This document shows positions 1,248 through 25,083 of a DNA stretch of 64,000 nucleotides, one piece after another; position 1 is the stretch's first letter, and every line of letters starts with the position of its first letter. The notes beneath the pieces are model-generated. The model ran no database searches. It saw nothing but the letters and a program-made list of their open reading frames with translations, and had not been told where the DNA came from. A program made the translations under genes and the position numbers. The stretch comes from Janthinobacterium tructae. GTDB lineage: Bacteria > Pseudomonadota > Gammaproteobacteria > Burkholderiales > Burkholderiaceae_D. The stretch is taken from positions 4,898,001-4,962,000 of the forward strand of contig NZ_CP041185.1 in assembly GCF_006517255.1 (NCBI RefSeq), read 5' to 3'.

Positions 1248-1266
1248 GCTAATTAGTAAAATCTCA

Positions 1267-1587: not shown

Positions 1588-4477
<2,890 letters not shown>

Positions 4478-4729: not shown

Positions 4730-4747
4730 TGTTATTCGCAGTAGAGA

Positions 4748-6622: not shown

Positions 6623-6628
6623 AAATTG

Positions 6629-6642
6629 GATAAATATTTATC
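6629..6642. promoter_or_regulatory. perfect AT-rich palindrome next to the rtcR start
   Basis: GATAAATATTTATC is a 14-bp perfect palindrome 7 bp upstream of the rtcR ATG. It could be an RtcR upstream site, a site for autoregulation, or chance in an AT-rich stretch. The region up to 6760 is unusually AT-rich for this genome. Confidence 0.3.
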
Positions 6643-6761
6643 TAAAAAGATAATTATAGTTTAGATTGTAATGCGCAGGAACTTGCTCGGCAGAACATGC
6701 ATTTAAATATTATTTAATTAAATCAATGGGTTATATGTATCTTGGGTGAAATATTAAAAGC

Positions 6762-6777
6762 TGGCACAGCGCTTGCA
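6762..6777 (+). promoter_or_regulatory. sigma-54 promoter for rtcBA
   Basis: TGGCACAGCGCTTGCA matches the -24/-12 consensus (TGGCAC, five bases, TTGCA) with correct GG-N10-GC spacing. It lies 141 bp before the rtcB ATG and faces it. Sigma-54 control with RtcR as activator is the established arrangement for rtc genes. Confidence 0.9.
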
Positions 6778-6826
6778 ATAGAGAGTGTAGCAACGAGATG
6801 AAAGTAGAGAGCAGGGAGGAACGAAA

Positions 6827-6898
6827 ATGGCCAGTACCTACCTCCAGAGCCGATACGTCGGCAGACGTTTTACCAAGCCTTGTCATCACCCCTTATAA
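6827..6898 (+). CDS. possible 23-residue leader peptide upstream of rtcB
   Basis: An ATG at 6827 opens a 23-codon frame ending TAA at 6896-6898. It sits 7 nt after GGGAGG (6814-6819), a ribosome binding site at least as good as that of rtcB. It lies between the sigma-54 promoter and rtcB, about 40 nt downstream of the expected transcript start, and ends 19 nt before the rtcB ATG. The peptide is basic (several Arg, Lys and His) and has no recognisable domain. It could be a translated leader that couples or tunes rtcB translation, the remnant of a lost gene, or chance. No homologue is known to me. Confidence 0.35.
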   Translation: MASTYLQSRYVGRRFTKPCHHPL

Positions 6899-6917
6899 AA
6901 TAGAAGAAAAGAAGCAG

Positions 6918-8153
6918 ATGAAAAACGAAGAATACGAAGTCCTGCATACCGAAGGCAGCCGTCCCATCAAAATGTGGACCCGTGGCGTGCCCGTCGAAGA
7001 AGCGGCTAAAAAACAATTGCGCAACACGGCGGCCCTGCCGTTCATTTACAAGCATATCGCCGTCATGCCCGACGTCCACCTGGGTAAAGGGTCGACCATC
7101 GGCAGCGTGATTCCCACCCTGGGTGCGGTGATTCCGGCGGCGGTGGGCGTGGATATCGGTTGCGGCATGATGGCGGCGAAAACCACGCTGACGGCCAGCG
7201 ACTTGCCCGATAACCTGGGACCACTGCGCAGTGCCATCGAACGCGCCATTCCGCACGGGATGTCGCCGAAGACGCGCGGCCACCGTGGCCGCGACGAAGG
7301 TTCCTGGCAGACGCCGCCATCGGTAGTTGATGCGGCATGGCTGCAATTGAAGGATGAATTCGATGCCATCTGCCTGAAAACGCCGAAGCTGAAAAATACG
7401 AATCACTACCGCCACCTGGGAACTTTGGGCAGCGGTAACCACTTCATCGAAGTGTGCCTCGACGAGCAGGGCTCTGTGTGGTTCATGCTGCATTCCGGCT
7501 CGCGCGGCGTGGGCAATGCCATCGGCACCCATTTCATCGAACTGGCCAAGCAGGATATGCGCACGCACTTCATCAACCTGCCCGACCAGGACCTGGCTTA
7601 CCTGGCCGAAGGTACGCAGCATTACGACGATTACGTGGAAGCGGTGGGCTGGGCGCAGCGTTTTGCGCGCAACAACCGCGAAGTGATGATGCAGAACCTG
7701 ATCGCGGCCGTGCGCACGGTCATCCATAAACCGTTCCAGACGCATGTGGAAGCCGTCAACTGCCACCATAACTATGTGCAGAAGGAACACCACTTCGGCA
7801 AGGACGTGCTGGTCACGCGCAAGGGGGCCGTGTCGGCCCGTGCCGGCGAGCTGGGAATCATTCCCGGATCCATGGGCGCGAAGAGTTTTATCGTGCGCGG
7901 CAAGGGCAATGCGGAGAGTTTTCATAGCTGCAGCCACGGTGCGGGACGCACGATGAGTCGCACGGAAGCGAAGCGGCGCTTCAACCTGGCCGACCAGATC
8001 CGCGCCACCGAGGGCGTGGAATGCCGCAAGGATGAAAATGTGATCGATGAAATTCCGATGGCCTACAAGGATATCGATGCGGTGATGCTGGCGCAGCGCG
8101 AGCTGGTCGATGTGGTGCATATCCTGAAGCAGGTCGTGTGCGTCAAAGGTTAA
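6918..8153 (+). CDS. rtcB: RtcB, RNA-splicing ligase (3'-phosphate or 2',3'-cyclic phosphate with 5'-OH)
   Basis: 411 residues. It joins RNA 3'-phosphate or 2',3'-cyclic phosphate ends to 5'-OH ends using GTP and Mn2+. Family signatures are HIAVMPDVHLGKGSTIG near 46-62, the metal site GVDIGCGM with Asp79 and Cys82, GTLGSGNHFIEV, and the guanylylation motif CSHGAGRTMSR near residue 340. An upstream in-frame ATG at 6798 would add 40 residues. I prefer 6918 because E. coli RtcB is 408 residues and the alignment begins here (MKNEEYEVL against MNYELLTTE), with a purine-rich binding site before it. It is followed after 16 nt by rtcA. Confidence 0.96.
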   Translation: MKNEEYEVLHTEGSRPIKMWTRGVPVEEAAKKQLRNTAALPFIYKHIAVMPDVHLGKGSTIGSVIPTLGAVIPAAVGVDIGCGMMAAKTTLTASDLPDNLGPLRSAIERAIPHGMSPKTRGHRGRDEGSWQTPPSVVDAAWLQLKDEFDAICLKTPKLKNTNHYRHLGTLGSGNHFIEVCLDEQGSVWFMLHSGSRGVGNAIGTHFIELAKQDMRTHFINLPDQDLAYLAEGTQHYDDYVEAVGWAQRFARNNREVMMQNLIAAVRTVIHKPFQTHVEAVNCHHNYVQKEHHFGKDVLVTRKGAVSARAGELGIIPGSMGAKSFIVRGKGNAESFHSCSHGAGRTMSRTEAKRRFNLADQIRATEGVECRKDENVIDEIPMAYKDIDAVMLAQRELVDVVHILKQVVCVKG

Positions 8154-8169
8154 GAGAGAGAAAGCAGAG

Positions 8170-9186
8170 ATGATAGAAATTGATGGAGCGCAAGGTGAAG
8201 GCGGCGGACAGATTTTGCGTTCGGCGCTGAGCCTGTCCATGATCACGGGGCAGCCGTTCCGGCTGATTAACATCCGCGCGGGACGGGACAAGCCCGGCTT
8301 GCTGCGCCAGCATCTGCTGGCCGTGCAGGCTGCAGCCGCCATTTGCGGGGCGCGCACGACGCCGGTGGCGCTGCGTGCAACCAGCCTGGAATTCGTGCCG
8401 GGGACAATTCGTAGCGGCGAATACCGCTTTGCCATCGGCAGCGCCGGCAGCTGCACCCTGGTGTTGCAAACCTTGCTGCCGGCCCTGCTGCATGCGGATG
8501 GGCCGACCACCGTGCGCATCAGTGGCGGCACGCACAATGCCATGGCGCCGCCCGTGCATTTCCTGCAGCGCGCGTATGGCCGTGTTCTGGAGCAGATGGG
8601 CGCCGAGGTAGAGATGACGCAACAGCGCTATGGTTTTCATCCCGCAGGCGGCGGCGAGGTGCTGGCCACCGTGCAACCGTGCCAGCGCTTGCGGCCCATT
8701 TCACTGCTGCAGCGCGGCGAACGGAAGGCCGGGTATGCGGAAAGCGTGGTGGCGGGCGTGCATGTAAACGTAGCGCAGCGCGAGCTCGAGCGTGTCGCCG
8801 ACGGCATGGGCTGGAGCGGCAAGCAGCTGCGCCTCGTCGGCTTGCCGGCGGAGCAGGGACCGGGCAACGTCCTGTTGCTGACATTGGAACATGAGCACGT
8901 CACGGAAGTATTTACGTCGTTCGGTGAAAAATCCTTGCTGGCCGAAACGGTTGCCAAGCGCCTGTTGAACGAGGTGCGCGCCTATCTCAAGACGGACGCG
9001 GCAGTCGGCGAGCACCTGGCCGACCAGCTCTTGCTGCCGATGGCGCTGGCCGGTGGCGGTAGCTTCAGTTGCAGCAAGGTGTCGCAGCATGCGCTGACGA
9101 ATGCGGAGGTAATTGCCCGATTTTTGCCCGTGCGTATCACTTTCGAGCAGCGGGAGGGGGGCAGCATCTGCACGGTGGCCGCCTGA
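8170..9186 (+). CDS. rtcA: RtcA, RNA 3'-terminal phosphate cyclase
   Basis: 338 residues. It converts an RNA 3'-phosphate to a 2',3'-cyclic phosphate using ATP through an adenylylated histidine. The N-terminus has the family hallmark GAQGEGGGQILRSALSLS, with RAGRDKPGLLRQH following. A His at position 307 (SQHALTNAE) aligns with the catalytic His309 of E. coli RtcA by length from the C-terminus. It is second in the rtcBA unit, 16 nt after rtcB, with GAGAGAAAGCAGAG as the ribosome site. The substrates of RtcA and RtcB connect directly, so the unit forms an end-healing and sealing pathway. Confidence 0.95.
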   Translation: MIEIDGAQGEGGGQILRSALSLSMITGQPFRLINIRAGRDKPGLLRQHLLAVQAAAAICGARTTPVALRATSLEFVPGTIRSGEYRFAIGSAGSCTLVLQTLLPALLHADGPTTVRISGGTHNAMAPPVHFLQRAYGRVLEQMGAEVEMTQQRYGFHPAGGGEVLATVQPCQRLRPISLLQRGERKAGYAESVVAGVHVNVAQRELERVADGMGWSGKQLRLVGLPAEQGPGNVLLLTLEHEHVTEVFTSFGEKSLLAETVAKRLLNEVRAYLKTDAAVGEHLADQLLLPMALAGGGSFSCSKVSQHALTNAEVIARFLPVRITFEQREGGSICTVAA

Positions 9187-9263: not shown

Positions 9264-9278
9264 TGGCATGGCATTTGC
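9264..9278 (+). promoter_or_regulatory. sigma-54 promoter for the pedF unit
   Basis: TGGCATGGCATTTGC fits GGCAYG-N4-TTGC. It lies 54 bp upstream of the pedF ATG. A half-site TGTTCCA at 9218-9224 also occurs upstream of the aldehyde dehydrogenase promoter and may be an activator site. This is one of five sigma-54-type promoters in the alcohol-oxidation locus. Confidence 0.8.
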
Positions 9279-9317: not shown

Positions 9318-9803
9318 ATGACCTATTCCATCCGTACCCTGCTCGGCGTGGCAGCCGCCGGCGCCGTCGCCCTCACTTCCCTGCTGACCTTGCCGCAGGC
9401 CTATGCGCACGGCAATGTCACGCCGCAAGGCGTCGACACCACGGGCTTGCCCAAGGTGGGCGACAAGTGGCTCGAACAAAACCCGTATCGGGGCAACAAG
9501 CTGGCCTTGACGGTCGGCACGTCGGCCTACAACCAGAATTGCGCGCGTTGCCACGGTATCGAAGCTATCTCGGGCGGCATCGCACCGGACTTGCGCCAGC
9601 TCGACCGCGATTGCTTCGGTATCAAGAATGAGACAAAGAAACAGGCTTGCTACAAGGAAACTGACAATTATTTCCTGGCGAGCATCCGTCACGGTAAAGT
9701 ACGCAATGGCGCCGTGTACATGCCGCCGTTCGAAGGCGTCTTCAACCAGGAAGCCATGTGGGCCATCAAGACCTATCTGGAAACCCGCCGCGAGCCTAAC
9801 TGA
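9318..9803 (+). CDS. pedF: cytochrome c-550 of the PedF/ExaB type
   Basis: 161 residues. A Sec signal peptide is cleaved near AYA|HGN (30), and one haem site CARCH has Cys75, Cys78 and His79. A Met in YMPPFEG near the C-terminus is the probable distal ligand. The HGNVTPQGVDTTGLP start of the mature protein is characteristic of the PedF family, which accepts electrons from PQQ-dependent alcohol dehydrogenases in the periplasm. The frame extends upstream to 9234. The ATG at 9318 is chosen because AAGGAGACCAGC precedes it and it gives a proper signal peptide. It is the first gene of a two-gene unit behind a sigma-54 promoter. Its partner is probably the dehydrogenase at 16428. Confidence 0.9.
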   Translation: MTYSIRTLLGVAAAGAVALTSLLTLPQAYAHGNVTPQGVDTTGLPKVGDKWLEQNPYRGNKLALTVGTSAYNQNCARCHGIEAISGGIAPDLRQLDRDCFGIKNETKKQACYKETDNYFLASIRHGKVRNGAVYMPPFEGVFNQEAMWAIKTYLETRREPN

Positions 9804-9827: not shown

Positions 9828-10661
9828 ATGCATTCATTCCAACTCCCGGGCGCGCGCGCGATGCTCTCGCTCGCCTGCCTGGCGCTATGCGCAGCCGCGC
9901 CAGCGCGCGCCGACTGGCAGAAAGTGCAGCAGTCGGGCAGCCTGAAAGTGGCGGTGTACAACGAGTTCGCGCCGTTTTCCGACAAGGGCACGGGCATCGA
10001 TATCGACATTGCCGAAGCGCTGGCCAAAAAGCTGGGTTTGAAACTGAGCTTGCTGCCCTTTCCCGCCGGTGAAAACCTGAACGACGATTTGCGCAATATG
10101 GTGTGGAAGGGGCATTACCTCGGCTATGGTCCCGCCGATGTGATGCTGCATGTGCCGGTCGATAAAAAATTGATGGCCGATAACGATAAGGTCGAAATCT
10201 TTGCGCCGTATTATGTGGAAACCGTGCGCCTGGCGCACAGCGCGCAAGCCGTGCCGCAATTCGATGGCGTCGCTTCGCTGGCCGGCAAGCGTATCGGCGT
10301 GGAAAAGGTATCGATCGCCGCCATGCTGATGCTGGGCGAAGACAATGGCAAGTACCGCGACGACGTGCGCATCTTCGACACGGCCGCCGAAGCCTTGCAG
10401 CAATTGCAGGCAGGCAAGCTCGACGCCGTGCTGGCGAATCGTTCGGAAATCGAGTCGGTGCTGAAAAGCGATCCCGCTTTTCCCTTGAGCGAAGTGGCGT
10501 TCGCCCGCCTGCCGCGTGCCGGCTGGGCCGTGGGCCTGGCCGTCAGCCGCCAGCAGCTCGACGTGGGCAAGTTGCTGCAGGCAGCCATGAACGAGATGGC
10601 GGCCAGCGGTGAATTGAAAGCCATCTTTGAGAAATATGGGGTGAAGGAAGCGCGGCCGTAA
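9828..10661 (+). CDS. quinoprotein-dehydrogenase-associated solute-binding protein (MxaJ/XoxJ-like)
   Basis: 277 residues. A signal peptide ends near ARA|DWQ (28), followed by an extracellular solute-binding protein family 3 fold. The segment DLRNMVWKGHYLGYGPADVM is typical of the subfamily found beside PQQ dehydrogenases. MxaJ/XoxJ homologues are thought to aid maturation or cofactor loading of the dehydrogenase rather than transport, and no ABC permease or ATPase gene is nearby. It begins 24 nt after pedF, so the two are co-transcribed. A strong terminator follows. The subfamily assignment is firm; the biochemical role is inferred from the family. Confidence 0.87.
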   Translation: MHSFQLPGARAMLSLACLALCAAAPARADWQKVQQSGSLKVAVYNEFAPFSDKGTGIDIDIAEALAKKLGLKLSLLPFPAGENLNDDLRNMVWKGHYLGYGPADVMLHVPVDKKLMADNDKVEIFAPYYVETVRLAHSAQAVPQFDGVASLAGKRIGVEKVSIAAMLMLGEDNGKYRDDVRIFDTAAEALQQLQAGKLDAVLANRSEIESVLKSDPAFPLSEVAFARLPRAGWAVGLAVSRQQLDVGKLLQAAMNEMAASGELKAIFEKYGVKEARP

Positions 10662-10781: not shown

Positions 10782-12920
10782 TTAAAACGAGTATTGCGCG
10801 CTAGCGCCTAACAACCAATTGCGTCCCGGCGCCGCTTCATAGTAGCGCTTGTTGCTGTCGCCGACGATGACGGAGCCCACGTAGGTCTTGTCGAAAAGAT
10901 TGTTCAGGCGGGCAAACTCCTTGAAGCGCCAATTCCCCACGTTTTGCTTGGCATTGACCCTGGCATTGAACACCGTGTAGCCGGGCGCCGGTTTTTCGAT
11001 ATTGCTGTCTTCCGCGTACACCTGATTGCTGGCCACGCTTTCCAGCGCCGCGCCGAAGCGGTCGAGCGTGTCTTTCCAGGCCAGTTCCGCAAACAGGTTG
11101 GCGCTGGGCGCGCCCGGCAAGCGGCTGCCTTCGCGCACATTGCCAAAGGCCTGGTCATATACGGCGTGCAGGCTGGTCAGCGCCACTTTTGTCGTGAAAC
11201 CATACGGCAGGCTGGAGTCCAGGGACACTTCCATGCCCTGGCGCAAGGTCTTGCCCGCATTGCGGTAGCTGGTGCGCCCTCCGCTGGAACTGTCGACCAC
11301 CAGCTCGTCGTTGGTCTTGATCTGGAACACAGCCGCGTTCACATGCGTGTTGTTGCCGATCCTGGCCTTGACACCCGCCTCCAGGTTGGTGCTGGTGGCC
11401 GGTTTCAGCTGGTAATTGAAGCCGCCGCCCGTGCCCGAGTAAAACAGTTCGTTCAAGGTGGGTGCTTCGAAGCCGCGCGCGGCGCTGGCGTACACGTTGA
11501 CGTTCGGCGTCAGTTTATACAGCAGGCCCAGCACCGGAGTCGTGTGGCTGAATTCCAGGCTGCCGCTGTCGTTGCCATTGCTGAGGAAATGGTCGTTAAC
11601 TTCCACTTTCATCTTGCTGTAGCGCACACCAGCGCTGAGCAGCCATGGCCCGCTTTGCCATTCCATCTGGAGATACGGATCGAGGCTGGAGACGACATCC
11701 TGCTCGTCGCGGCGCAGCTTGCCTTTTACGCCAAAGCTATTGCCAATGTAATTCTCATAGCCGGTGCGGTCATCGCTGGAGCGGCCGTAATCGATGCCGA
11801 TGGTGGTGCTCAGCTTGCCGTCAGCCAATTGATTTACGTGCAGCCAGTTGGTATCGATGCCATAGAACTGGCGCTGGAAGTCGACCACACCGCCCGAATG
11901 GCTGGCCGGTGCCTGGAAGCCTTTGGTGAAAGCCTGGTACTGGATGACATCGCGGTTGCCGCCATACACCATCACATGCAGGCGGTCGTCGCCAAACGCT
12001 TGTTCATAGGTGGCGCCGATCTGCTGGTGGTCGATACTCTTGCGCGTGTTGTAGCGCTCGGCCAGGGTGCGTTTCGGGCTCTGTGTATCCGTCGTATCGA
12101 TTTCGCCGGCGCGCGGGTCGCGGGCAAACGTGGCCCAGGTGGCGCCCAGCGGATCTTGCGTGTTGCCCTGGTGCAGGCTGTTGGCGACGATGGTCAGCTT
12201 GCTGTCCGCATTGGGCTTGACGGTGATCTTGCCGAACGCCTGTTCGCGCGTGGCGGCGCTGTGGTCGCGGAAGCCATCCGTGCGGAAGCGCGAACCGTCG
12301 AGCACGTAGCCGATGCCGCCTGCCTGGCCTTGCGCCGTCAGGTCCACCTTGCTGGTGCCGAAACTGCCGCCCGTTACATTTAGTTCGACGGACGGGGGAT
12401 TCTGCCCATCCTTGGAAAACAGCTGGATCACGCCGCCAGAATGGTTGCCATAGATGGCAGAAAACGGTCCGCGCAGCACTTCGATGCGCTCGGCCGTATC
12501 GAGGTTGAAGGTAGCGGCCTGGCCCTGGCCATCGGGCATGCTGGCAGGAATGCCATCGCTGATCAGTTTGACGCCGCGCACGCCGAAGGCCGAGCGGGCG
12601 CCAAAGCCGCGCGACGAGATCTGCAAGTCTTGCGCGTAGTTCTGGCGGTTCTGCACAACCAGGCCCGGCACTGCGGCCAGCGCTTCCGATGCATTGACGC
12701 GGATTTGGCCATCCTGAATGCGGGCGCTGTCGACCACGTCGAGCGAGGCCGGCACTTCCTGGCTGGGGTGGGCGATGCGGCTGCCGCTGATGACCACCGT
12801 ATCCATGAGTTGCCCGTTGGCCAGGTCAGCTGCCTCGGCGGCGAAAACGTGGGGGGCGAGGGTGGCGCTGCCGGCGACAAACAGGCTGGCAATGGTGTTC
12901 AAGCGGAAACGATGCTGCAT
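10782..12920 (-). CDS. pqqU: TonB-dependent outer-membrane receptor, PqqU/YncD-like (candidate PQQ importer)
   Basis: 712 residues, with a signal peptide of about 28 residues, a TonB-box-like segment MDTVVISGSR, a plug domain and a 22-strand-type barrel ending in Phe. From memory it is strikingly close to E. coli YncD, now PqqU, which imports the cofactor PQQ. Shared short segments include VPGL.VQNRQNYAQDLQ, GFG.R, DGIPA.MPDGQGQ, EVLRGPFSA.YGN, VVDSSSGGRT.Y.NAGKT, and FDK.YVGSVIV near the end. It lies in the middle of genes for PQQ-dependent alcohol oxidation, and a minus-strand sigma-54 promoter precedes it. A lanthanide-chelate receptor is the main alternative. The TonB-receptor class is certain; the PQQ ligand is an inference from similarity plus context. 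Confidence 0.82.
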   Translation of the reverse strand: MQHRFRLNTIASLFVAGSATLAPHVFAAEAADLANGQLMDTVVISGSRIAHPSQEVPASLDVVDSARIQDGQIRVNASEALAAVPGLVVQNRQNYAQDLQISSRGFGARSAFGVRGVKLISDGIPASMPDGQGQAATFNLDTAERIEVLRGPFSAIYGNHSGGVIQLFSKDGQNPPSVELNVTGGSFGTSKVDLTAQGQAGGIGYVLDGSRFRTDGFRDHSAATREQAFGKITVKPNADSKLTIVANSLHQGNTQDPLGATWATFARDPRAGEIDTTDTQSPKRTLAERYNTRKSIDHQQIGATYEQAFGDDRLHVMVYGGNRDVIQYQAFTKGFQAPASHSGGVVDFQRQFYGIDTNWLHVNQLADGKLSTTIGIDYGRSSDDRTGYENYIGNSFGVKGKLRRDEQDVVSSLDPYLQMEWQSGPWLLSAGVRYSKMKVEVNDHFLSNGNDSGSLEFSHTTPVLGLLYKLTPNVNVYASAARGFEAPTLNELFYSGTGGGFNYQLKPATSTNLEAGVKARIGNNTHVNAAVFQIKTNDELVVDSSSGGRTSYRNAGKTLRQGMEVSLDSSLPYGFTTKVALTSLHAVYDQAFGNVREGSRLPGAPSANLFAELAWKDTLDRFGAALESVASNQVYAEDSNIEKPAPGYTVFNARVNAKQNVGNWRFKEFARLNNLFDKTYVGSVIVGDSNKRYYEAAPGRNWLLGASAQYSF

Positions 12921-12990: not shown

Positions 12991-13005
12991 GCAATATGCC
13001 TGCCA
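12991..13005 (-). promoter_or_regulatory. sigma-54-like promoter for the TonB receptor
   Basis: On the minus strand TGGCAGGCATATTGC reads as a -24/-12 element with GG-N10-GC spacing and one departure from consensus (G for C/T after GGCA). It lies 71 bp upstream of the receptor ATG. It is back-to-back with the plus-strand sigma-54 promoter at 13043. Confidence 0.65.
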
Positions 13006-13042: not shown

Positions 13043-13058
13043 TGGCACGGCGTTTGCA
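13043..13058 (+). promoter_or_regulatory. sigma-54 promoter for the beta-propeller gene
   Basis: TGGCACGGCGTTTGCA is a full match to GGCACG-N4-TTGCA. It lies 66 bp upstream of the ATG at 13124 and only 37 bp from the divergent element at 13005, so one activator complex could serve both. Confidence 0.88.
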
Positions 13059-13123: not shown

Positions 13124-14080
13124 ATGCCCAACTTCTTCTCACGCTTGCGACAGGTCTGCTGGCTGCTGCCTGCGCTTGCCAGCAGCGCCCTCCAGGCCGC
13201 TCCTTTTGCCTATGTCCCCAATGAAAAATCGGGCACCTTGAGCGTGATCGACACGGCGACCGACCAGGTGGTGCACCAGATCGCGGCAGGCAAGCGGCCG
13301 CGCGGCATCGCCGCCGACCCGACCGGGCGGCAATTGTTTGTCACCGATGCCGCCAGCAGCGCCTTGTTGCTGATCGATAACGCGAGCGGCACGCCCGTGC
13401 GCACGGTGGCGCTGGGCAAGTCGCCCGAAGGCGTCAGCGCTTCGCAGGACGGTCGTTACGTGGCCGTGGCCGTCGAGGAAAACAACAGCGTGAGCTTGCT
13501 CGATGGTCAGACGGGCGTCTTGCTCGCCGATATCAAGGTGCAGGGACGCAATCCGGAACATGCCGTGTTTAGCCCGGACGGGCGCTGGCTGCTGGTCAGT
13601 GCGGAAGAGGCCGAGCAAGTCGATGTCATTGATGTGACGCAACGCCGCCAGGTGGCGTCCATCGCCGTGGGCTTGCGTCCGCGCGGCATTGGATTCAGTC
13701 CGGACTCGGGCCACGCCTATGTGGCGTGCGAACTGGTCAACGCCGTGTATGTGATCGACATGGCTGCGCGCAAGGCCGTCGCCACCATTCCAGCGGGCAA
13801 GAATGCCAACGGCATCGCCGTCCATCCCAGCGGCAAGCAGGTGTATGTCTCGAACGGCACGGACGGCACGGTGATGGTGATCGATACGGCCAGCAACAAG
13901 GTGACGGCCACCATTCCCGTCGGCAAACGTCCGTGGAATATGGCCATCACGCCCGATGGCAGCAAGCTGTACGTGGCCAATGGCCGCTCGAACAGCGTGT
14001 CCGTCATCGATACTGCCAGCGCGCGCAAAGTGGCCGATATTGCCGTGGGCGAATTGCCATGGGGCGTGGTGATACGGTAG
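13124..14080 (+). CDS. YVTN beta-propeller protein associated with PQQ-dependent catabolism
   Basis: 318 residues. A signal peptide (about 1-24, LQA|APF) is followed by seven or so repeats of the type YV.N..SGTVSVIDTA...V...I.VGK.P.GIA..PDG, forming a periplasmic beta-propeller. Such proteins are a recognised family in quinoprotein alcohol-oxidation loci, but their function is not established. The frame is open from 12935. The ATG at 13124 is chosen for its signal peptide and the AAAAGGTG just before it. It has its own sigma-54 promoter and is divergent from the TonB receptor. Confidence 0.88.
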   Translation: MPNFFSRLRQVCWLLPALASSALQAAPFAYVPNEKSGTLSVIDTATDQVVHQIAAGKRPRGIAADPTGRQLFVTDAASSALLLIDNASGTPVRTVALGKSPEGVSASQDGRYVAVAVEENNSVSLLDGQTGVLLADIKVQGRNPEHAVFSPDGRWLLVSAEEAEQVDVIDVTQRRQVASIAVGLRPRGIGFSPDSGHAYVACELVNAVYVIDMAARKAVATIPAGKNANGIAVHPSGKQVYVSNGTDGTVMVIDTASNKVTATIPVGKRPWNMAITPDGSKLYVANGRSNSVSVIDTASARKVADIAVGELPWGVVIR

Positions 14081-14325: not shown

Positions 14326-14340
14326 TGGCACGGCATTTGC
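14326..14340 (+). promoter_or_regulatory. sigma-54 promoter for the aldehyde dehydrogenase operon
   Basis: TGGCACGGCATTTGC is a full match to GGCACG-N4-TTGC. It lies 88 bp upstream of the ATG at 14429 and probably drives the aldehyde dehydrogenase, DUF779 and alcohol dehydrogenase genes together. Confidence 0.88.
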
Positions 14341-14428: not shown

Positions 14429-15949
<1,521 letters not shown>

Positions 15950-16003: not shown

Positions 16004-16393
16004 ATGAGTGCAGCAATTGCCCGGGTGGTCGCCACCGATGCGGCGCTGGAAATGATGGACAAGTTACGCCAGCGTCACGGCCCGCTGATGTTTTTCCAGT
16101 CGGGCGGCTGCTGCGACGGGAGTGCGCCCATGTGTTATGCGCTGGGCGAGTTCGATGTCAGCGATACCGATATCTATCTCGGCAACTTGAATGGCACACC
16201 GTTTTACATGGGACTCGAGCAATTCGAGTACTGGGAGCATACCCAGTTGATTATCGATGTGGTCGATGGCAATGGCGGCATGTTTTCACTCGACAACGGC
16301 ACTGGCAAGCGCTTCCTGACGCGCTCGCGCCTGTTCACCGATGAAGAGTGCGCGCTATTGCATGCCCAGCCGCATGAGCACCGCAAGACCTGA
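16004..16393 (+). CDS. DUF779 family protein, aldehyde-dehydrogenase companion
   Basis: 129 residues. It has a central [11 protein letters not shown] segment rich in Cys that could bind metal, and [23 protein letters not shown] downstream in pieces typical of DUF779. Genes of this family commonly sit beside AcoD/ExaC-type aldehyde dehydrogenases, but no biochemical function is known to me. It starts 54 nt after exaC and is followed by the alcohol dehydrogenase gene, so it belongs to the same operon. Confidence 0.85.
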
Positions 16394-16427
16394 TACACAC
16401 ATACTAATAAAACAGAGGGAGATGATT

Positions 16428-18179
16428 GTGCAGAAAAAAATCATGGGGATCGTCGTCGGTTTGAGTGTCGCCTCGTTGGTCCAGGCGGCCGACGTGGGCA
16501 ATGTCACCAATGCCATGCTCGACAACACGGCGAAGAATCCGGCCAGCGTCCTGTCGTTTGGCATGGGCACGCAGGGGCAGCGCTATTCGCCGTTGACGCA
16601 GATCAATGACAAGACCGTGGCCAAGCTGGTGCCGGCCTGGTCGTTCTCGTTTGGCGGCGAAAAACAGCGGGGCCAGGAATCGCAGCCGCTGATTCATAAC
16701 GGCAAGATGTTCGTCACGGCATCGTATTCGCGCATCTTTGCCGTCGACTTGAAAACGGGCGCCAAGCTGTGGAAATATGAGCATCGCTTGCCGGACGGCA
16801 TCATGCCCTGCTGCGACGTGGTCAACCGCGGTGCCGCCCTGTATGGCAACCTGGTGATTTTCGGCACGCTCGACGCCTACCTGGTGGCGCTGGACCAGAA
16901 CACGGGCAAGATCGTCTGGAAGGAAAAGGTCGACGACTATGCGGCAGGGTACTCGATGACGGCCGCGCCGCTGATCGCCGAAGGCTTGCTGCTGACGGGC
17001 GTGTCGGGCGGGGAATTCGGTATCGTGGGGCGGGTCGAGGCGCGCAACCCCATGACGGGTGACCTCGTGTGGAGCCGTCCTACGGTCGAGGGCCATATGG
17101 GCCACCGCTACGACAAGGATGGCAAGGCGAGCGATAACGGCGTATCTGGCACGGTCAACAAAACCTGGCCGGGCGACCTGTGGAAAACGGGCGGCGCGTC
17201 CACCTGGATGGGCGGCACCTACGATCCGCAAACCAAGCTGGCCTATTTCGGCACCGGCAACCCGGCGCCATGGAACAGCCATTTGCGTCCCGGCGACAAC
17301 CTGTATTCCTCATCCACCGTGGCGCTGGACGTCAAGACGGGCCAGATCAAATGGGCGTATCAAAACACGCCCAACGATGCCTGGGATTTCGATGGCGCCA
17401 ACGAGTTCGTCACCTTCGACATGGATGGCAAGCGCTACGGCGGCAAGGCCGACCGCAACGGTTTCTTCTATGTCATCGATGCTACCAACGGCAAGCTGCA
17501 GAACGCCTTTCCGTTTGTGAAGAAAATCACCTGGGCCAGCAGCATCGACCTGAAAACGGGACGGCCGAACTACATCGCCGCCGGCCGCCCAGGCGATCCG
17601 ACCAAGGGAGAAGAAGGCAAGAAAGGCACGACCGTGTTTGCCGCGCCTGCTTTCCTCGGTGCAAAAAACCAGATGCCGATGGCGTACTCGCCGCAAACCA
17701 AGCTGTTCTATGTGCCGGCGAACGAATGGGGCATGGATATCTGGAACGAGCCGATCAGCTACAAGAAGGGTGGCGCCTTCCTCGGTGCAGGCTTCACCAT
17801 CAAGCCCTTGTTTGACGACTACATCGGCGCCATGCGCGCCATCGATCCGAAGACGGGCAAGATCGTCTGGGAAATCAAGAACAACGCGCCGCTGTGGGGC
17901 GGCGTGATGAGCACTGCCGGCAATCTGGTGTTCTACGGCACGCCGGAAGGCTTCCTGAAAGCCGTCGACGCGAAGACGGGCAAGGAACTGTGGAAATTCC
18001 AGACGGGTTCCGGCGTCGTGGCGCCGCCCGTCACCTGGCAGGATGGCGATACGCAATATGTAGCCGTCGTATCTGGCTGGGGTGGCGCGGTGCCGCTGTG
18101 GGGTGGCGAAGTGGCCAAGAAGGTCAACTTCCTGGAGCAGGGCGGCTCCGTGTGGGTCTTCAAACTGGCATCGAAGTAA
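16428..18179 (+). CDS. pedH: PQQ-dependent alcohol dehydrogenase with lanthanide-type active site (PedH/XoxF-like)
   Basis: 583 residues from a GTG start. It has a Sec signal peptide (to about QAA) and an eight-bladed quinoprotein propeller. The adjacent-Cys disulphide motif MPCCDVV (Cys128-Cys129) is present. The catalytic region reads NDAWDFDG, with catalytic Asp320 and a second acidic residue Asp322. In XoxF and PedH this extra Asp coordinates a lanthanide; calcium enzymes have Ala or Ser there. An in-frame ATG at 16422 is only one base from the AGAGGGA binding site, so GTG 16428 is preferred. It oxidises primary alcohols in the periplasm, passing electrons to PedF. The lanthanide requirement is inferred from the residue. 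No calcium paralogue is in the window. Confidence 0.9.
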
Positions 18180-18466: not shown

Positions 18467-19627
18467 ATGAACACATTGAGCAAGCTGGGGAGCCTGGGTG
18501 TCATGACAATCGCAGCGATGGGGCAGGCACAAGCCGTCGATATCAAGGCGGGCGACTGGACCGTGTCGGTGGGCGGCATCGTCAACGCCTATTACACGCA
18601 AGTGTCGTGTTCGGGCGATGCGGTGGGTGGGCTGGCGCTGGGCGGCCAGGCGCTCGGTTGCGGTGGCGAGAAGGACCGCACCACGATCGGCAACGGCTTG
18701 CTGCCGAATGGCTTGATCACCTCGGCAAGCTCGCGCCTGGGCGAGTACGACGTGAAAGCCTTGATCGGCATCTACAACTCGACGGCCACCGACAGCGCCA
18801 TCAGCCAGAACAGCGTGGTCGATGTGCGCCAGGCCTTCTTCACGTTCGGCAATGCGGAAATGGGCACCTTCAAGCTGGGCCGCGACTACGGCATCTTCGG
18901 CGCGAATGCGATCCTGTCCGACATGACCTTGTTGGGTTCGGGCGCACCCGTGCAGGCAACGCAGCGGGGCCGCGTGACCCTGGGCCATATCGGCGCCGGC
19001 TACACCTATCTGGGCAACTATGGCCAGATCATGTACAGCTCGCCGAAGTCCGGCGGCTTTGGCGTCGATGTGGCGCTGGTCAGCCCCGTTTCCGATACGC
19101 CCATCGTGGCAGGCTCGACCTATTCCTCGAAGTCGAGTCCGCAAGTGCAGGCGCAAGTGACGTATGCGCAGGAAGGCTTGAAAGCCTGGCTGGGCGTGAA
19201 GTCGCAAAAATTCACCTCGAAAACGCCAGGTGTCGATGACCTGACCATGCGCGGCGTGGAAGTGGGCGGCTCGTACCAGATGGGCCCGGCCGGCGTGCTG
19301 GTCAACTTCCAGGGCGGCAAAGGATTGGGGATACTCTCCGATGCGGATCAGGGCGATACCAAGTCGAAGAACTGGCTGCTGCAAGGCACGTATAAAACGA
19401 CGGACAAGCTGAAGCTGGGCTTGTCCTACGGCATCAGCAAGAACGACGACAATACGGCCGGCACGGGCGGCTTGAAGTCGAACGCCAACCTGACGCTGGG
19501 CGCGTATTACTCGCTCAACAGCGCGATCACCCTGGTGGGCGAACTGGGCCAGACGCGCTCGAAAGGCTTTACGGGCGGCGAAGCGAAGATGAATGGCGTG
19601 TCGCTGGGCGGCATTATTTTCTTCTAA
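18467..19627 (+). CDS. outer-membrane porin
   Basis: 386 residues. A signal peptide is cleaved near AQA|VDI (23). The mature part is rich in alternating hydrophobic strands and Gly/Ser turns, contains the porin-like element TFKLGRDYGIFG, and ends in a C-terminal aromatic residue (GGIIFF). It resembles Gram-negative general porins of Burkholderiales. Two Cys residues in a loop (VSCSGD, LGCGG) are unusual for a porin and may form a disulphide. The upstream in-frame start at 18431 is rejected because AGAGGAGACGCA precedes the ATG at 18467. It probably lets alcohols or small solutes into the periplasm; the substrate is unknown. Confidence 0.82.
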   Translation: MNTLSKLGSLGVMTIAAMGQAQAVDIKAGDWTVSVGGIVNAYYTQVSCSGDAVGGLALGGQALGCGGEKDRTTIGNGLLPNGLITSASSRLGEYDVKALIGIYNSTATDSAISQNSVVDVRQAFFTFGNAEMGTFKLGRDYGIFGANAILSDMTLLGSGAPVQATQRGRVTLGHIGAGYTYLGNYGQIMYSSPKSGGFGVDVALVSPVSDTPIVAGSTYSSKSSPQVQAQVTYAQEGLKAWLGVKSQKFTSKTPGVDDLTMRGVEVGGSYQMGPAGVLVNFQGGKGLGILSDADQGDTKSKNWLLQGTYKTTDKLKLGLSYGISKNDDNTAGTGGLKSNANLTLGAYYSLNSAITLVGELGQTRSKGFTGGEAKMNGVSLGGIIFF

Positions 19628-19675
19628 CCAATAAATGCGGCGCCTTGCGACAGGGCGCCGCACGGAGTGCAATGC

Positions 19676-21787
19676 ATGCGGATAATGCGGTTGTTCATCG
19701 GATGCTGGCTATTCCTGTTTATCTTGGGACAGGCGTGGGCAGGCGTGCTCACCAAGGCCGAGCTGGCACGGCGTTTTCCTGCTCCCATCGTCGTCGGCGA
19801 CAAGGAGACCGACTTGCCCGTCTGGCCCTTGTTCCGGCAAAACGCCACGGCCACCGAACTGGTCGGCTACGTGTTTGAATCGGTGGACCTGGCTCCGATT
19901 CCCGGTTTTTCCGGCGTGCCCGTCAATCTGCTGATCGGCATCGATCCGAAAGGCAGTTTTCTGGACGTCGCCGTGCTGTCGCAACACGAACCGGTGTTTC
20001 TCGACGGCCTAGGTGAAGCGCCCCTGTTTCAATTCGTCAAACAGTACCAGGGTTTGTCGCTGAAACAGAATATCGCCATCGATGCGCGCACCAAGCGCGC
20101 GCCAGATGCGACCCACGCCGATATCGACGGCGTGTCGAAGGCCACGGCCTCCGTGCGCATCATCAACCAGAGCGTGCTGGCCTCCGCCTTGAAAGTGTCG
20201 CGCAAAAAACTGGGTTTTGCGCAAGGGCGCGACCCCGACCAGATTGCCCGCATCCGCATGGACGTGTTCGAAAAACTCAGCGCGGCGCAGATGCTCAAAC
20301 AAGGCTTGATCCAGCATGTACGCCTGAGCAACAAGGACGTGGAAACCCTGTTTGCCGGCAGTCCTGGCGCGGGACTCGATACGCAGGCCACACGCGAACC
20401 GGACGGTGTGTTCATCGACCTGTACCTGGCGTATGTATCCGTGCCCACGGTGGGACGCAATCTGTTGACGGAGCGCAGCTGGAGCAAACTGCGCAACCGG
20501 CTCGACGAGGGCGACCACGCCATCCTCGTCATGTCGCGCGGGCGCTACAGCGTGCTGGGCGACGATTTTGTGCGCGGCACCGTGCCGGACCGGCTGTTGC
20601 TGAAGCAGGATGGCTTGCCCATCGACATGCGCGACCTGGACCTGGAATTGAGTTTGTCGGAGGGGGCAGCGTTGCCGACGGAAAATGTCGCTGTCTTTCG
20701 CATCATCAGCCAGGCGGGGCTCGATGCGGCCAGCCCGCTGGCGTTCACACTTCCCATCACGCGCAGCAAGGGCATCGTGTATCCGGAACGCATCGCCCGC
20801 AACGTGGATTTCAGTTTCCGCCTGCCGGCTGATTTTTATAGCGCACCGCAAGGCGACGATGCCACATGGCGCGGCACGTGGAAGAACCGCAAGGCCGAGC
20901 TATTGACCTTGCTGGCCGGGCTGGCGCTGCTGGCCGGCGCTTTGGCCTGGCAAAAACGCCTGGTGCGCGAGGGGCGGCAATTTACCTGGTTCCGCCGCCT
21001 GTTCCTGTTGTTTACCATCGCTTTCATCGGTTACTACGCGCAGGGGCAGTTATCGATCGTCAATATTACGGGCGCATTCCAGGCGCTGCTGGCGGGGCGC
21101 AGCCTGGGCTTTTTCCTGTTCGATCCGATGACGGTGATCCTGTGGGCTTTCGTGCTGCTCAGTCTGTTTATCTGGGGGCGCGGCACGTTTTGCGGCTGGC
21201 TGTGTCCGTTCGGCGCGCTGCAGGAATTCACGGGCAAGCTGGGCCAGTGGTTGCGATTGCCTCAGTGGAAGATCAAGCCGCGCCTGGACGGGCGCTTGAA
21301 ATGGGTCAAGTATGGCTTGCTGGCGGCCATTCTCGGCAGCAGCGTGTTTTCCAGCCAGCTCACGGACAAGCTGGTGGAACTGGAGCCGTTCAAGACGGCG
21401 ATCACTTTGAATTTCGTGCGCGCCTGGCCCTTCGTCGTCTATGCCGTGGGCTTGCTGCTGCTCAGCAGCGTTTCCTACAAATTCTTTTGCCGCTACCTGT
21501 GTCCGTTTGGCGCGGCGCTGGCGCTGCTGGGGCGCTTTCGCCTGTTCAACTGGATTCCCCGCCGCAAGGAATGCGGCACGCCTTGCCAGACTTGTCGCCA
21601 CCGTTGCGAGTATCACGCCATCGCGCCCAGCGGGAAGGTCGATTACGGTGAGTGTTTCCAGTGCATGGATTGCGTGGTGATTTACGCCAGCGATGAAAAA
21701 TGCGCACCCTTGATGCTGGAAATCAAGCGTGCCCGTACCATTCCCATCGTCCGGGCCACGGCGGAGGAGAGCAGCAATGCAGCGTAG
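19676..21787 (+). CDS. NosR/NirI-family membrane flavin and iron-sulphur protein
   Basis: 703 residues. It has a signal/first membrane segment, then a periplasmic FMN-binding domain (about 80-185). This domain carries DGVSKATAS, a variant of the S/T-G-A-T flavinylation motif. Several membrane helices (about 410-625) hold two cysteine motifs, FCGWLCPFG and FCRYLCPFG. Cytoplasmic ferredoxin-like clusters follow (CGTPCQTCRHRC and CFQCMDC). NosR proteins carry electrons across the membrane to or from periplasmic enzymes and were first called regulators. There is no nosZ here; the neighbours are quinoprotein genes. The start 19676 is chosen over the GTG at 19667 because GGAG lies 8 nt before it. 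Its partner ApbE overlaps its end. Confidence 0.9.
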   Translation: MRIMRLFIGCWLFLFILGQAWAGVLTKAELARRFPAPIVVGDKETDLPVWPLFRQNATATELVGYVFESVDLAPIPGFSGVPVNLLIGIDPKGSFLDVAVLSQHEPVFLDGLGEAPLFQFVKQYQGLSLKQNIAIDARTKRAPDATHADIDGVSKATASVRIINQSVLASALKVSRKKLGFAQGRDPDQIARIRMDVFEKLSAAQMLKQGLIQHVRLSNKDVETLFAGSPGAGLDTQATREPDGVFIDLYLAYVSVPTVGRNLLTERSWSKLRNRLDEGDHAILVMSRGRYSVLGDDFVRGTVPDRLLLKQDGLPIDMRDLDLELSLSEGAALPTENVAVFRIISQAGLDAASPLAFTLPITRSKGIVYPERIARNVDFSFRLPADFYSAPQGDDATWRGTWKNRKAELLTLLAGLALLAGALAWQKRLVREGRQFTWFRRLFLLFTIAFIGYYAQGQLSIVNITGAFQALLAGRSLGFFLFDPMTVILWAFVLLSLFIWGRGTFCGWLCPFGALQEFTGKLGQWLRLPQWKIKPRLDGRLKWVKYGLLAAILGSSVFSSQLTDKLVELEPFKTAITLNFVRAWPFVVYAVGLLLLSSVSYKFFCRYLCPFGAALALLGRFRLFNWIPRRKECGTPCQTCRHRCEYHAIAPSGKVDYGECFQCMDCVVIYASDEKCAPLMLEIKRARTIPIVRATAEESSNAA

Positions 21788-22787
21788 AACCTTTATTTCC
21801 GCAGCGATCGGCAGCGTGGCCGGCATGGCGGGCGTGTCCTTGCCTGGCAGCATGGCGCGCGGCACGGCCACGGCGTCCGGCGTGCGGCCTTATCAAGGCG
21901 CCGCGCTGGCGTTTGGCACGACGATCGCCGTCACCGTGTTGCACCACGATCAGCACCAGGCCGAACTGGCGATTGAAGACGCCTTGCATGCGGCCAGGAA
22001 TATCGACCGGCTGATGAGCATTTACAGCCCGGCCAGCCAAGTCTTTCAGCTGAATCGTGATGGCCGTCTGGCCCGGCCGGACGTGCATCTGCTGGCCGTG
22101 CTGGCGCAGGCGCAAGCCTTGTCGCAATCGAGCGATGGGGCGTTCGATATCACCGTGCAACCCTTGTGGCAGCTATTTCGCGCGGCGGCAGACCAGGCAC
22201 GCTTGCCGACGGACACATTGCGTCGTGCCGCGCAGGCGCGGGTTGGCTGGCGGCAACTGGCGTGGGATAGCCGCGAAGTGCGTTTTCTTCAGCCCGGCAT
22301 GGCGCTGACCTTGAATGGCCTGGCGCAAGGCTACGCGGCGGACATGGCGCTGGCGGCCGTGCAGGCGCGCGGCATACGGCACGCGCTGCTCGACACGGGT
22401 GAGTTCATTGCGCGCGGACAGCGCTCCCTGCGCCGTCCGTGGACCTTGGGCATCCAGGACCCGCGCGACAGGGAAATCCTGGCGGCTACCTTGAAAGTGG
22501 AAGGGCGCAGCGTGGCCACGTCAGGCGATTACGAATGCACGTTCACGCCCGACTTCGCGCATCACCACATCTTCGACCCTTCGAACGGCGATTCGCCGCG
22601 CGAACTGGCCAGCGTGACCGTGCTGGCGCCCACGGGTTTGCTGGCCGACGGTTTGTCGACGACCTTCATGGTGACGGGGGCCGCGCGTGCGCATGCGATG
22701 GCCGCACACATGCAGGGCGTCGACCTGATGACCATCGACAAGTCGGGCCAGCGCAAGATGTCTCCCGGCTTTGCCCGTCTAATCTAA
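21777..22787 (+). CDS. apbE: ApbE, FAD:protein FMN transferase
   Basis: 336 residues. It attaches FMN covalently to a Thr or Ser in flavinylation motifs of periplasmic proteins. The N-terminus MQRRTFISAAIG looks like a Tat or Sec signal with twin Arg. Family features include a D...MS.Y sequence (RNIDRLMSIYSPAS), LNGLAQGYAAD, a nucleotide-binding segment, and the acidic/metal region near the C-terminus (LADGLSTTFMVTG). The ATG lies 11 nt inside the end of the NosR-like gene, indicating translational coupling. That makes the flavin domain of its neighbour the most probable substrate. Confidence 0.93.
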   Translation: MQRRTFISAAIGSVAGMAGVSLPGSMARGTATASGVRPYQGAALAFGTTIAVTVLHHDQHQAELAIEDALHAARNIDRLMSIYSPASQVFQLNRDGRLARPDVHLLAVLAQAQALSQSSDGAFDITVQPLWQLFRAAADQARLPTDTLRRAAQARVGWRQLAWDSREVRFLQPGMALTLNGLAQGYAADMALAAVQARGIRHALLDTGEFIARGQRSLRRPWTLGIQDPRDREILAATLKVEGRSVATSGDYECTFTPDFAHHHIFDPSNGDSPRELASVTVLAPTGLLADGLSTTFMVTGAARAHAMAAHMQGVDLMTIDKSGQRKMSPGFARLI

Positions 22788-22788
22788 G

Positions 22789-24777
22789 CTATTTCAGATG
22801 CGGTACCTTGCGATAGATCGTGTTGCGCGACACGCCCAGGGCCCGCGCCGTGGCCGAGACGTTGCCGCCGTGGGCATCGAGCGACTTGAGAATCGCGCTT
22901 TGTTCCATTTCTTCCAGGTTCGCGCCGGCGGCAATCATGCGGTCCGTGCTGGCGCTGGCGGCATGGGCCTGCGTCATCTCAATATCGTCGAGGAAATCAT
23001 CAGGCATGTGGCGTAGACAGATTTCATGCTCGTCGCCTGCCATGACGATGGCCGTGCGCAACAGATTGGTCAACTGGCGGAAATTGCCTGGCCATTTATG
23101 CTGGTGGAACATGCGCAGGATGTCCGGCGCCACCGTGTAGCGCGTATCGGGCGCTTCCGTCGCGAGGATTTTCTTGACGACTGTGTCCAGGTCGGTGCGT
23201 TCACGCAGCGGCGGCAGTTTGACCACCAGGCCATTCAGGCGATAATACAAGTCTTCGCGGAACAGTCCCTTGGCCATGCGTTCGCGCAAGTTGTGATTCG
23301 TGGCGCAAATGAGTTCCACATTGACGGTGATCGATTTGCTGCTGCCCAGCGGGGTGACCATGCGTTCCTGCAGCACGCGCAACAGCCGCGCCTGCAAGCC
23401 GAAGGGCATGTCGCCGATTTCATCGAGGAACAGGGTGCCACCATTGGCTTGCAGGATCTTGCCGATGGCCCCTTTCTTGCGCGCGCCCGTAAATGCCCCG
23501 TCTTCATAGCCGAACAGTTCAGACTCGATCAGGGTTTCCGGGATCGACGCGCAATTGACGGCGATAAACGGTCCCATGGCCCGCGGCGAGTCGTTATGGA
23601 TGGCTTGCGCCAGCAATTCCTTGCCTGTGCCCGTTTCACCCATGACGAGGATGGGAATATCGCGCCCCAGCACCTTGTTGACTTTTTCGATCACCAGTTC
23701 CAGTTGCGGATCGCCCGTGCGCAAGTAGCGCAGGCCGGACAGGCGGCGCGCCGCGTTGGCCGCATGGCTGGCTGGTGCGGGAACCTGGGCCGGCACGGCG
23801 TTGATATCGCTATGGTCGGTGCTGGCAGTGAAACCGTGCTGGAAAACGCTATTGGACAAGCGCAACTGCGCGCGCCCATACACGCGCACGCCGCTGTGCA
23901 TGCACAGGTTCAGCAAACCGGGTGAGGCCGTCCGGTAATGTTCGTACAGGGCAGACACGGGCAAGCCGAACAGGGAGCTGAAGGTATGGGATTGCAGCGC
24001 GGCGAATGACAGGCCCAGCTGGAACAAACCGTTTTTATTGGCGGATAAAAACCGCCCGCCCGGCGTGAATGAGGCGATGCCTTCCATTAAGGTGCCGATG
24101 AATTCGGGACGCGCGTGGAAGTGCACGGTGATGGCGTCTTCAAAGGTGGCGGAAAACAGCTGATTCTCAATCATCAGCGCCGACATGCGCACCAAAGCCA
24201 TCGTATGCTTGTGAAAGCTGCGCTGATCGCTGGACACGTCCAGCACGCCGATGACATTGCCCCGGTGATCGGTGATCGGTGCCGCGGAGCACGTCAGGAA
24301 ATGATTGGCGGCCAGGTAATGCTGGTCCGCATGGACCAACGTCGGTACTTTCTCCGTGATGGCCGTGCCGATGGCATTCGTGCCGCGGCTTTGTTCCGAC
24401 CATGCCACGCCCGGCTGCAGCGCCACGCGGTTGGCTTTCTCCAGGAAATCATCGTCACCCAGCGAATGCACGATCACGCCGTTGGCATCCGTCAAGATCA
24501 CCATATTGTGCGTGTTGACGATTTGCTGGTACAGGGTTTCCATGGCGGGCAGTGCGTGCGTGTGCAGCATGCGGTTTTGCTCGATCAGCAGTGACAGGTC
24601 GGATTTGCCGGCCGGCGTAAAGTCGGGCGTGGCCGTGGGCGACAGCCCAAAGGCGACTGAGCGCTGATGGGACGTTTCGATGATGACGGGGACGTTGTCC
24701 TGTCCTGCCGGCAAAATGTTCGCGTCCGCGATGGACGAAAACGGTGCGCTACGGTAAGTAGCTGACGGTTGATACAT
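22789..24777 (-). CDS. AcoR-like sigma-54-dependent activator
   Basis: 662 residues. A GAF sensor region (about 85-215) is followed by a central AAA+ domain with Walker A GETGTGKE (380-387), the sigma-54 loop GAFTGA (427-432) and Walker B TLFLDE (448-453). The C-terminal Fis-type helix-turn-helix is ALGVSRNTIYRKV. It lacks a response-regulator receiver domain, so it probably senses a small molecule; AcoR homologues respond to acetoin or acetaldehyde-type signals. GGAGG is placed 10 nt before this ATG, so I discard the 21 upstream codons. It ends two bases from apbE, convergent. It is the likely activator of the five sigma-54 promoters between 9264 and 18402. Confidence 0.9.
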   Translation of the reverse strand: MYQPSATYRSAPFSSIADANILPAGQDNVPVIIETSHQRSVAFGLSPTATPDFTPAGKSDLSLLIEQNRMLHTHALPAMETLYQQIVNTHNMVILTDANGVIVHSLGDDDFLEKANRVALQPGVAWSEQSRGTNAIGTAITEKVPTLVHADQHYLAANHFLTCSAAPITDHRGNVIGVLDVSSDQRSFHKHTMALVRMSALMIENQLFSATFEDAITVHFHARPEFIGTLMEGIASFTPGGRFLSANKNGLFQLGLSFAALQSHTFSSLFGLPVSALYEHYRTASPGLLNLCMHSGVRVYGRAQLRLSNSVFQHGFTASTDHSDINAVPAQVPAPASHAANAARRLSGLRYLRTGDPQLELVIEKVNKVLGRDIPILVMGETGTGKELLAQAIHNDSPRAMGPFIAVNCASIPETLIESELFGYEDGAFTGARKKGAIGKILQANGGTLFLDEIGDMPFGLQARLLRVLQERMVTPLGSSKSITVNVELICATNHNLRERMAKGLFREDLYYRLNGLVVKLPPLRERTDLDTVVKKILATEAPDTRYTVAPDILRMFHQHKWPGNFRQLTNLLRTAIVMAGDEHEICLRHMPDDFLDDIEMTQAHAASASTDRMIAAGANLEEMEQSAILKSLDAHGGNVSATARALGVSRNTIYRKVPHLK

Positions 24778-25083
24778 GATCTCGTTGCCTCCGTTGGGCC
24801 CTGTACTGCGGCGCTCTTTTGAATATCGAGAGTGTTCCATAATGTAGCACCTGTCACAGATGGGAGCAAAGCAAAGCGAACCGGGCTGTCCCCAGTGTTG
24901 CTGCCAGGCCCAGAGTTGCTGCCATCAGTGTGCAGTGCATATGTCTGTATAAGCAAGTGCGGTGCCAGGGCTGTTTCTCGGAGCTGAAAAATAGCCCTTG
25001 CAGGGTGCACGGGGCAGGGCTATAATTCGCCCCCTCGCTGAACGATGCATGCAAATGCTGAGTGAAGCGGGTAAAAAAGAAGG
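24778..25083. other. intergenic region between the activator gene and the rRNA promoter
   Basis: About 300 bp without a supportable gene. It holds the ribosome site of the minus-strand activator (GGAGG in reverse at about 24788). Short weak repeats such as CCCAGTGTTGCTGCCAGG/CCCAGAGTTGCTGCCA (about 24891-24923) are present. I see no promoter for the activator that I can defend. Confidence 0.4.

Follow-up and report, generated by a model that had tools for sequence, protein, structure and literature searches.

A PqqU-type receptor gene with a sigma-54 type promoter site in a lanthanide-type alcohol dehydrogenase locus of Janthinobacterium tructae: predicted import of pyrroloquinoline quinone

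We analyzed a 64,000-nucleotide stretch of the Janthinobacterium tructae genome (contig NZ_CP041185.1, positions 4,898,001 to 4,962,000; "the window" below). A 712-amino acid (aa) open reading frame (ORF), P0001, spans the whole of positions 10782 to 12920 on the minus strand. By sequence it is most likely a PqqU/YncD receptor, a further member of a known family. Very probably the protein is a TonB-dependent importer of pyrroloquinoline quinone (PQQ) that serves the apo-quinoproteins of a strain that appears not to synthesize PQQ, and is co-induced with an alcohol dehydrogenase locus through sigma-54. The family, the contact residues, the absence of three core synthesis genes, the gene association and the conserved promoter pattern are read from the sequence; from these we infer PQQ binding, transport, regulation, the inducer and the identity of the regulator.

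P0001 carries the TonB plug and barrel domains. It scores 647 bits with the NCBIfam PqqU profile and 177 bits with the second-best receptor family. The closest solved structures are YncD (6v81, 523 bits) and a PQQ transporter (9c4o, 521 bits), and the third reaches only 63 bits. The resemblance to E. coli YncD (PqqU) proposed in the original prediction is confirmed by these scores. The profile score lies below the NF041535 equivalog naming threshold (1200 bits), a value reached by none of the 195 genomes surveyed at family level and by 11 of the 398 surveyed at phylum level. The match to 6v81 has an E-value of 9.6e-156 (phmmer against the PDB), far under the limit of 1e-5 used as a homology criterion in PMC12124388, where it was applied by blastp against NR. 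P0001 resembles E. coli YncD along its whole length and shares 44.5% aa sequence identity with it, with 291 identical residues in an alignment of 654.

Under the definition in the main text of PMC12124388, a PqqU protein has an aromatic residue at position 99 (E. coli numbering) together with Arg304 and Arg365. The paper counts 12 PQQ contacts, of which we found 11 named, and ten of these 11 positions are identical in P0001. The sole change is Tyr99 to Phe (Phe112 in P0001), which is compatible with PqqU because the published signature allows an aromatic residue. The two arginines are Arg323 and Arg385 of P0001, and the other eight contacts (Q84, Q121, K274, Q308, Q310, N477, Y481, and R536) are all identical. 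The contact asparagine was taken as 477: the source gives N477 once and N447E once, and E. coli residue 447 is Trp. The signature is present in 162 of 162 proteins of a PqqU set, which was gathered by similarity (at least 250 bits), includes two repeats and is not independent. None of the 29 other receptors examined from the same genome has it; these were drawn from 68 receptor matches, one of them PqqU itself, and 38 were not looked at. One receptor (L191) was read as 922 residues versus 972 listed. In a tree made by a quick method and with several long branches, 45 PqqU-set proteins and the 29 other receptors are separated by one branch with SH-aLRT support of 100. The tree placement suggested earlier as a check did not refute the PqqU reading as far as these 29 receptors go, among which siderophore receptors were not singled out. 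Fold searches were carried out with a weak AlphaFold model: the top two Foldseek matches are PqqU/YncD, VIA-align ties PqqU/YncD with Fiu, and no lanthanide receptor is among the 50 matches listed.

Profile searches bear out that the receptor gene lies among PQQ enzymes, in a quinoprotein alcohol dehydrogenase locus. The order along the plus strand is pedF, a binding protein gene, pqqU (reverse), a YVTN propeller gene, exaC, a DUF779 gene, the dehydrogenase gene, a porin-like gene, a NosR-like gene, an ApbE gene and a sigma-54 activator gene (reverse) (Table 1). The best solved relative of the dehydrogenase is 6zcw (833 bits; 680 bits for 1flg), the lanthanide-dependent PedH, for which the D-x-D motif is used as a marker (PMC11996626). 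The window enzyme has the lanthanide-type motif DAWDFD with the second Asp of D-x-D present, and by this sequence evidence it is a PedH-like dehydrogenase of the lanthanide type. The Asp is kept in the dehydrogenases of all 31 syntenic relatives; one Janthinobacterium record with another arrangement (L013) has the calcium-type Ser in its place. Three Janthinobacterium genomes (G597, G611, and G613; loci L217 to L219) carry another PQQ dehydrogenase, which shares about 52% identity with that of the window and is oriented in the same direction as pqqU.

A promoter type shared between the receptor gene and its neighbors, also part of the original prediction, was found again. The window contains 17 copies of the sigma-54 type pattern TGGC-N7-TTGC, some of them intragenic, versus 5.55 expected. 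Copies are located upstream of pedF, pqqU, the propeller gene, and exaC. Conservation was surveyed in the best 80 of 583 relatives, split by dehydrogenase locus and flank length; the nearest named relatives are Janthinobacterium, with protein identity up to 96%. All 31 relatives with this dehydrogenase locus have the site no more than 150 bases from pqqU. Counted within 200 bases upstream in relatives with the same dehydrogenase, the site was present in 31 of 31 cases for each of three genes (pqqU, exaC, and the propeller gene) and in 28 of 29 for pedF. The control rate is 0.1 to 0.4%, as determined with mononucleotide shuffles, and the related loci are not independent. The site was not found upstream of the binding protein (0/30), DUF779 (0/31), or NosR-like (0/25) genes of relatives. 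Twelve relatives have at least 5.5 kb upstream but lack the locus, and four of them show the site: L048, L052, and L054, which have another dehydrogenase (about 40% identical, with the lanthanide motif), and L026, which has none. The other 37 have too little flank (site present in one, none in 29, seven not judgeable).

A further 13 Janthinobacterium stretches were added; three duplicate earlier records (L210, L211, and L219 repeat L012, L011, and L013; elsewhere in the collection L074/L148 and L042/L147 are duplicates with identical PqqU). The site at pqqU is present in the locus-bearing G603, G610, and G612. It is missing in all six congeners that have pqqU without the dehydrogenase and pqqB, in the three with the other dehydrogenase arrangement, and in G602, which has a more distant PqqU (39% identity). 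In L210 to L215 no such alcohol dehydrogenase is found at E 1e-80, pqqU is kept and the site is gone; exaC and the DUF779 gene still adjoin pqqU in five of these six. G603 and G610 carry pqqB yet keep locus, receptor, and sigma-54 site. Because these two congeners keep the arrangement, the promoter is coupled to the lanthanide-type enzyme locus and not to auxotrophy. A dyad (TGT-N2-C-N6-G-N2-ACA) was considered as the activator site and rejected, as it occurs once versus 0.81 by chance and lies within a gene. Elsewhere in the window, the RNA repair genes rtcBA and the adjoining regulator gene rtcR (5015 to 9186) include a sigma-54 type site before rtcB (6762 to 6776), which is kept in three of nine relatives.

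The same promoter data could be read differently. The adjacent dehydrogenase is lanthanide-type and the sigma-54 site accompanies the lanthanide-type locus, as might be expected if the receptor imported a lanthanide-chelator or lanthanide-PQQ complex for that enzyme. We regard this as unlikely: the free-PQQ contacts are conserved, among them the lysine at position 274, where metal co-transport has been proposed for Glu (PMC12124388), and G597, G611, and G613 pair PqqU with the 52% identical dehydrogenase, whose motif, read in one of them (L013, from the G597 contig), is the calcium type.

The PQQ import reading gains from the search for synthesis genes. The host genome is a single contig of 6,314,370 bases; its listed completeness is 100% and its listed contamination 0.53%. 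In it no pqqB or pqqC match was obtained at E 0.001, and the matches to pqqE were all weak (best 54.5 bits versus a cut-off of 381); pqqA and pqqD, both part of the pqqABCDE set proposed earlier for a whole-genome check, were not searched for, nor was pqqF. The absence of pqq genes that had been reported for the 64 kb therefore stands, and it extends genome-wide for pqqB, pqqC, and over-cut-off pqqE. The pqqC model was silent in all 14 control genomes and the search was repeated over 195 family-level genomes. In the repeat, pqqC was detected over the cut-off in 47 of 195 genomes (51 at E 0.001, the four below the cut-off being scored absent) and again not in the host genome (G000). The pqqB model scores over its cut-off in 5 of 40 Janthinobacterium genomes. 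All five of these assemblies have at least 160 contigs and contamination of 2 to 6%. A genus-wide absence of PQQ synthesis, as drawn from the 13 Janthinobacterium of the 195-genome sample (pqqC in 0/13), was rejected on account of these five.

The host genome encodes four clear quinoproteins, namely three TIGR03074-type dehydrogenases and the window alcohol dehydrogenase. The TIGR03074 matched stretches score 832.5, 863.4, and 863.4 bits (cut-off 832.65). An extra weak PF01011 match in a 405-residue frame (20.3 bits; 52.1 bits with its neighbors) was not counted as a quinoprotein. Its gene content suggests that the strain cannot make PQQ and would therefore need an external source. Two options had been put forward originally, dependence on external PQQ and recapture of the cell's own. 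The first is favored because there is no pqqB or pqqC match, no PqqE over the cut-off, and there are four clear quinoproteins to supply; the second would need synthesis.

PqqU and the dehydrogenase tend to occur together. Both were called at E 1e-100 in the 195 family-level genomes (part of the candidates was scored and misses are possible; 73 of the 75 dehydrogenase-positive genomes also exceed the dehydrogenase cut-off). Sixty-two genomes have both, 45 PqqU alone, 13 the dehydrogenase alone, and 75 neither (Fisher p 3e-10, uncorrected for kinship). PqqU is present in 34 of 35 genomes with the dehydrogenase and without pqqC (21 of 22 outside Janthinobacterium), in 28 of 40 with both dehydrogenase and pqqC, in 5 of 7 with pqqC and no dehydrogenase, and in 40 of 113 with neither. 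The 13 Janthinobacterium in this sample all have PqqU and the dehydrogenase. In the wider Janthinobacterium sample (n = 40, host included), 39 have PqqU and 33 the dehydrogenase, and the two genes lie within 10 kb in 31 of these 33. Twenty-eight have the dehydrogenase without pqqB, and PqqU accompanies it in 28 of 28; six have PqqU without dehydrogenase and pqqB, and G590 lacks all three. Some relatives may carry two PqqU copies: a Massilia contig (NZ_JAJFES010000028.1) has two pqqU matches (L048 and L065), and G056, G162, G173, and G424 have two PqqU matches each.

The pqqB-bearing congeners G603 and G610, with their intact arrangement, and the 28 of 40 family genomes that combine PqqU with dehydrogenase and pqqC would fit a receptor that chiefly recaptures PQQ made and lost by its own cell. 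These two congeners could indeed recapture their own PQQ. For the host, whose one-contig genome lacks a pqqB or pqqC match and any PqqE over the cut-off, this explanation is very improbable. A receptor for siderophores or other substrates that resembles PqqU in a general way only is hardly credible: substrate is generally hard to infer from receptor sequence (PMC12124388), but the difference between the two best profile scores, the lack of the signature in the 29 other receptors and the split in the tree stand against it.

In the favored explanation, import of free PQQ by a PqqU-type receptor, PQQ produced by neighboring cells would be bound at the outer membrane and driven by TonB energy from the medium across the outer membrane to the periplasm. 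There it would be taken up by the apoenzymes, namely the lanthanide-type alcohol dehydrogenase and, encoded elsewhere in the genome, three membrane-bound dehydrogenases of the glucose/quinate type. No inner-membrane step would be needed, because quinoproteins are periplasmic (PMC12124388). In the presence of alcohol a sigma-54 activator, probably the one encoded at the end of the locus (22789 to 24840), would raise the receptor, ExaC, the dehydrogenase, the propeller protein, and PedF together. A wider proposal, to which we give even chances, is substrate-induced cofactor foraging: an alcohol-responsive sigma-54 activator would induce a lanthanide-dependent dehydrogenase together with a high-affinity PQQ importer, and alcohol oxidation in most Janthinobacterium would need two cofactors obtained by scavenging, of which one is a public good supplied by neighbors. 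The locus links the predicted PQQ import to a single enzyme system and a single type of promoter. It also provides a sequence-level (sigma-54) prediction for the regulation of PQQ uptake. PQQ cross-feeding becomes testable, since the same locus occurs in members of the genus with pqqB and in members without it.

PQQ scavenging by PqqU itself is already published (PMC12124388). According to its main text, the importer is spread over 22 phyla, often without PQQ synthesis (found in only 23% of PqqU carriers), and pqqU is co-located with pqq genes in four Burkholderiales genomes. The PqqU homologs reported there have the same signature as P0001. E. coli PqqU (YncD) resembles P0001 in its domains, sequence, and contacts, and E. 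coli lacks PQQ synthesis; it differs in that PqqU there supports glucose dehydrogenase (PMC12124388). In E. coli K-12, pqqU sits between mcbR and yncE, whereas here its surroundings are an alcohol dehydrogenase locus and a sigma-54 type site precedes it. The Pseudomonas ped cluster (PedE-PedI) is similar in its PedH-like dehydrogenase, PedF, aldehyde dehydrogenase, and a binding protein next to pedF like PedG. LanA is a TonB-dependent receptor tied to lanthanide-type dehydrogenases. LutH is another (PMC12997753). In the portion of that 2026 ped review available to us PqqU does not occur, and ped hosts differ in having a pqq biosynthetic operon. The words Janthinobacterium, Massilia, "Oxalobacter", "sigma", and "promoter" do not occur in the main text of PMC12124388. 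No literature combining Janthinobacterium, pyrroloquinoline quinone, and lanthanide was found, and no description of a sigma-54-linked pqqU in the part of the literature on PqqU and Janthinobacterium PQQ that was covered, the supplements of PMC12124388 excluded. The sigma-54 coupling of pqqU to a lanthanide-type dehydrogenase may thus be new.

The propeller gene is divergent from pqqU in the window, and yncE is likewise divergent from pqqU in E. coli K-12 (L090). The window propeller shares only 23% identity with YncE over 269 residues, and a conserved orthologous pqqU-yncE pair is not supported. In the best 80 of 583 relatives, a window-type propeller gene lies on the opposite strand less than 500 bases from pqqU in 32, many of the others being short-flanked. 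Among 80 further loci from the family and phylum (L091 to L170), a propeller of at least 100 bits is found in 12. Two of these are enterobacterial-type loci with divergent YncE. The window type accounts for the other ten: in seven the propeller gene adjoins pqqU and is read in the same direction, in two it is 0.9 to 1.4 kb away, and one (L147) duplicates L042. Confinement of this neighborhood to this group of relatives would be too strong a claim, as the window type is beside pqqU in other Burkholderiales too. The xoxF3 clusters of Acidobacteria and Gemmatimonadetes similarly have a YncE propeller and a TonB receptor by lanthanide-type methanol dehydrogenase genes; dehydrogenase and phyla are different there, and the text covered does not state the receptor type (PMC10875860). 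The recurrence suggests a link between pqqU and propeller genes, whether functional or a mere reflection of shared PQQ loci, and the propeller protein may be a partner protein that helps handle PQQ in the periplasm.

Table 1. Genes and sigma-54 type sites of the pqqU region (window positions)
Feature	Position	Strand	Basis or remark
Sigma-54 type site upstream of pedF	9264..9278	+	
Cytochrome c-550 PedF	9318..9803	+	TIGR04494 199 bits, cut-off 122; scored on ORF from 9234, start by eye
Periplasmic solute-binding protein (SBP_bac_3)	9828..10661	+	PedG-like by position only
PqqU/YncD-type TonB-dependent receptor (P0001, 712 aa)	10782..12920	-	Family profiles, structure matches, contact residues, tree
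Sigma-54 -24/-12 type site upstream of pqqU, TGGCAGGCATATTGC	12991..13005	-	Starts 85 bases before ATG; pattern match
Sigma-54 type site upstream of beta-propeller gene	13043..13057	+	
YVTN beta-propeller, divergent from pqqU	13124..14080	+	TIGR03866-like, 223 bits (longer ORF), cut-off 287; start by eye
Sigma-54 type site upstream of exaC	14326..14340	+	
Acetaldehyde dehydrogenase ExaC	14429..15949	+	NF050026 950 bits, cut-off 900
DUF779 protein	16004..16393	+	
PQQ alcohol dehydrogenase, PedH-like	16422..18179	+	TIGR03075 756 bits, cut-off 480; start by eye
Putative porin-like outer-membrane protein	18467..19627	+	No family match; name and start by eye
NosR-like FMN-binding 4Fe-4S protein	19667..21787	+	NosR model 593 bits, cut-off 1000
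ApbE family protein	21729..22787	+	
Sigma-54 activator (GAF, AAA+, Fis-type HTH)	22789..24840	-	Candidate locus regulator, role inferred from position
Sigma-54 type pattern upstream of activator gene	24953..24967	-	Pattern match

The NosR-like protein and its own ApbE (19667 to 22787) lie within the dehydrogenase locus and are retained in many relatives. At its left end (1 to 4740) the window enters an rRNA operon mid-way; part of the 16S gene, two tRNA-like stretches, and the 23S and 5S genes were read by eye.
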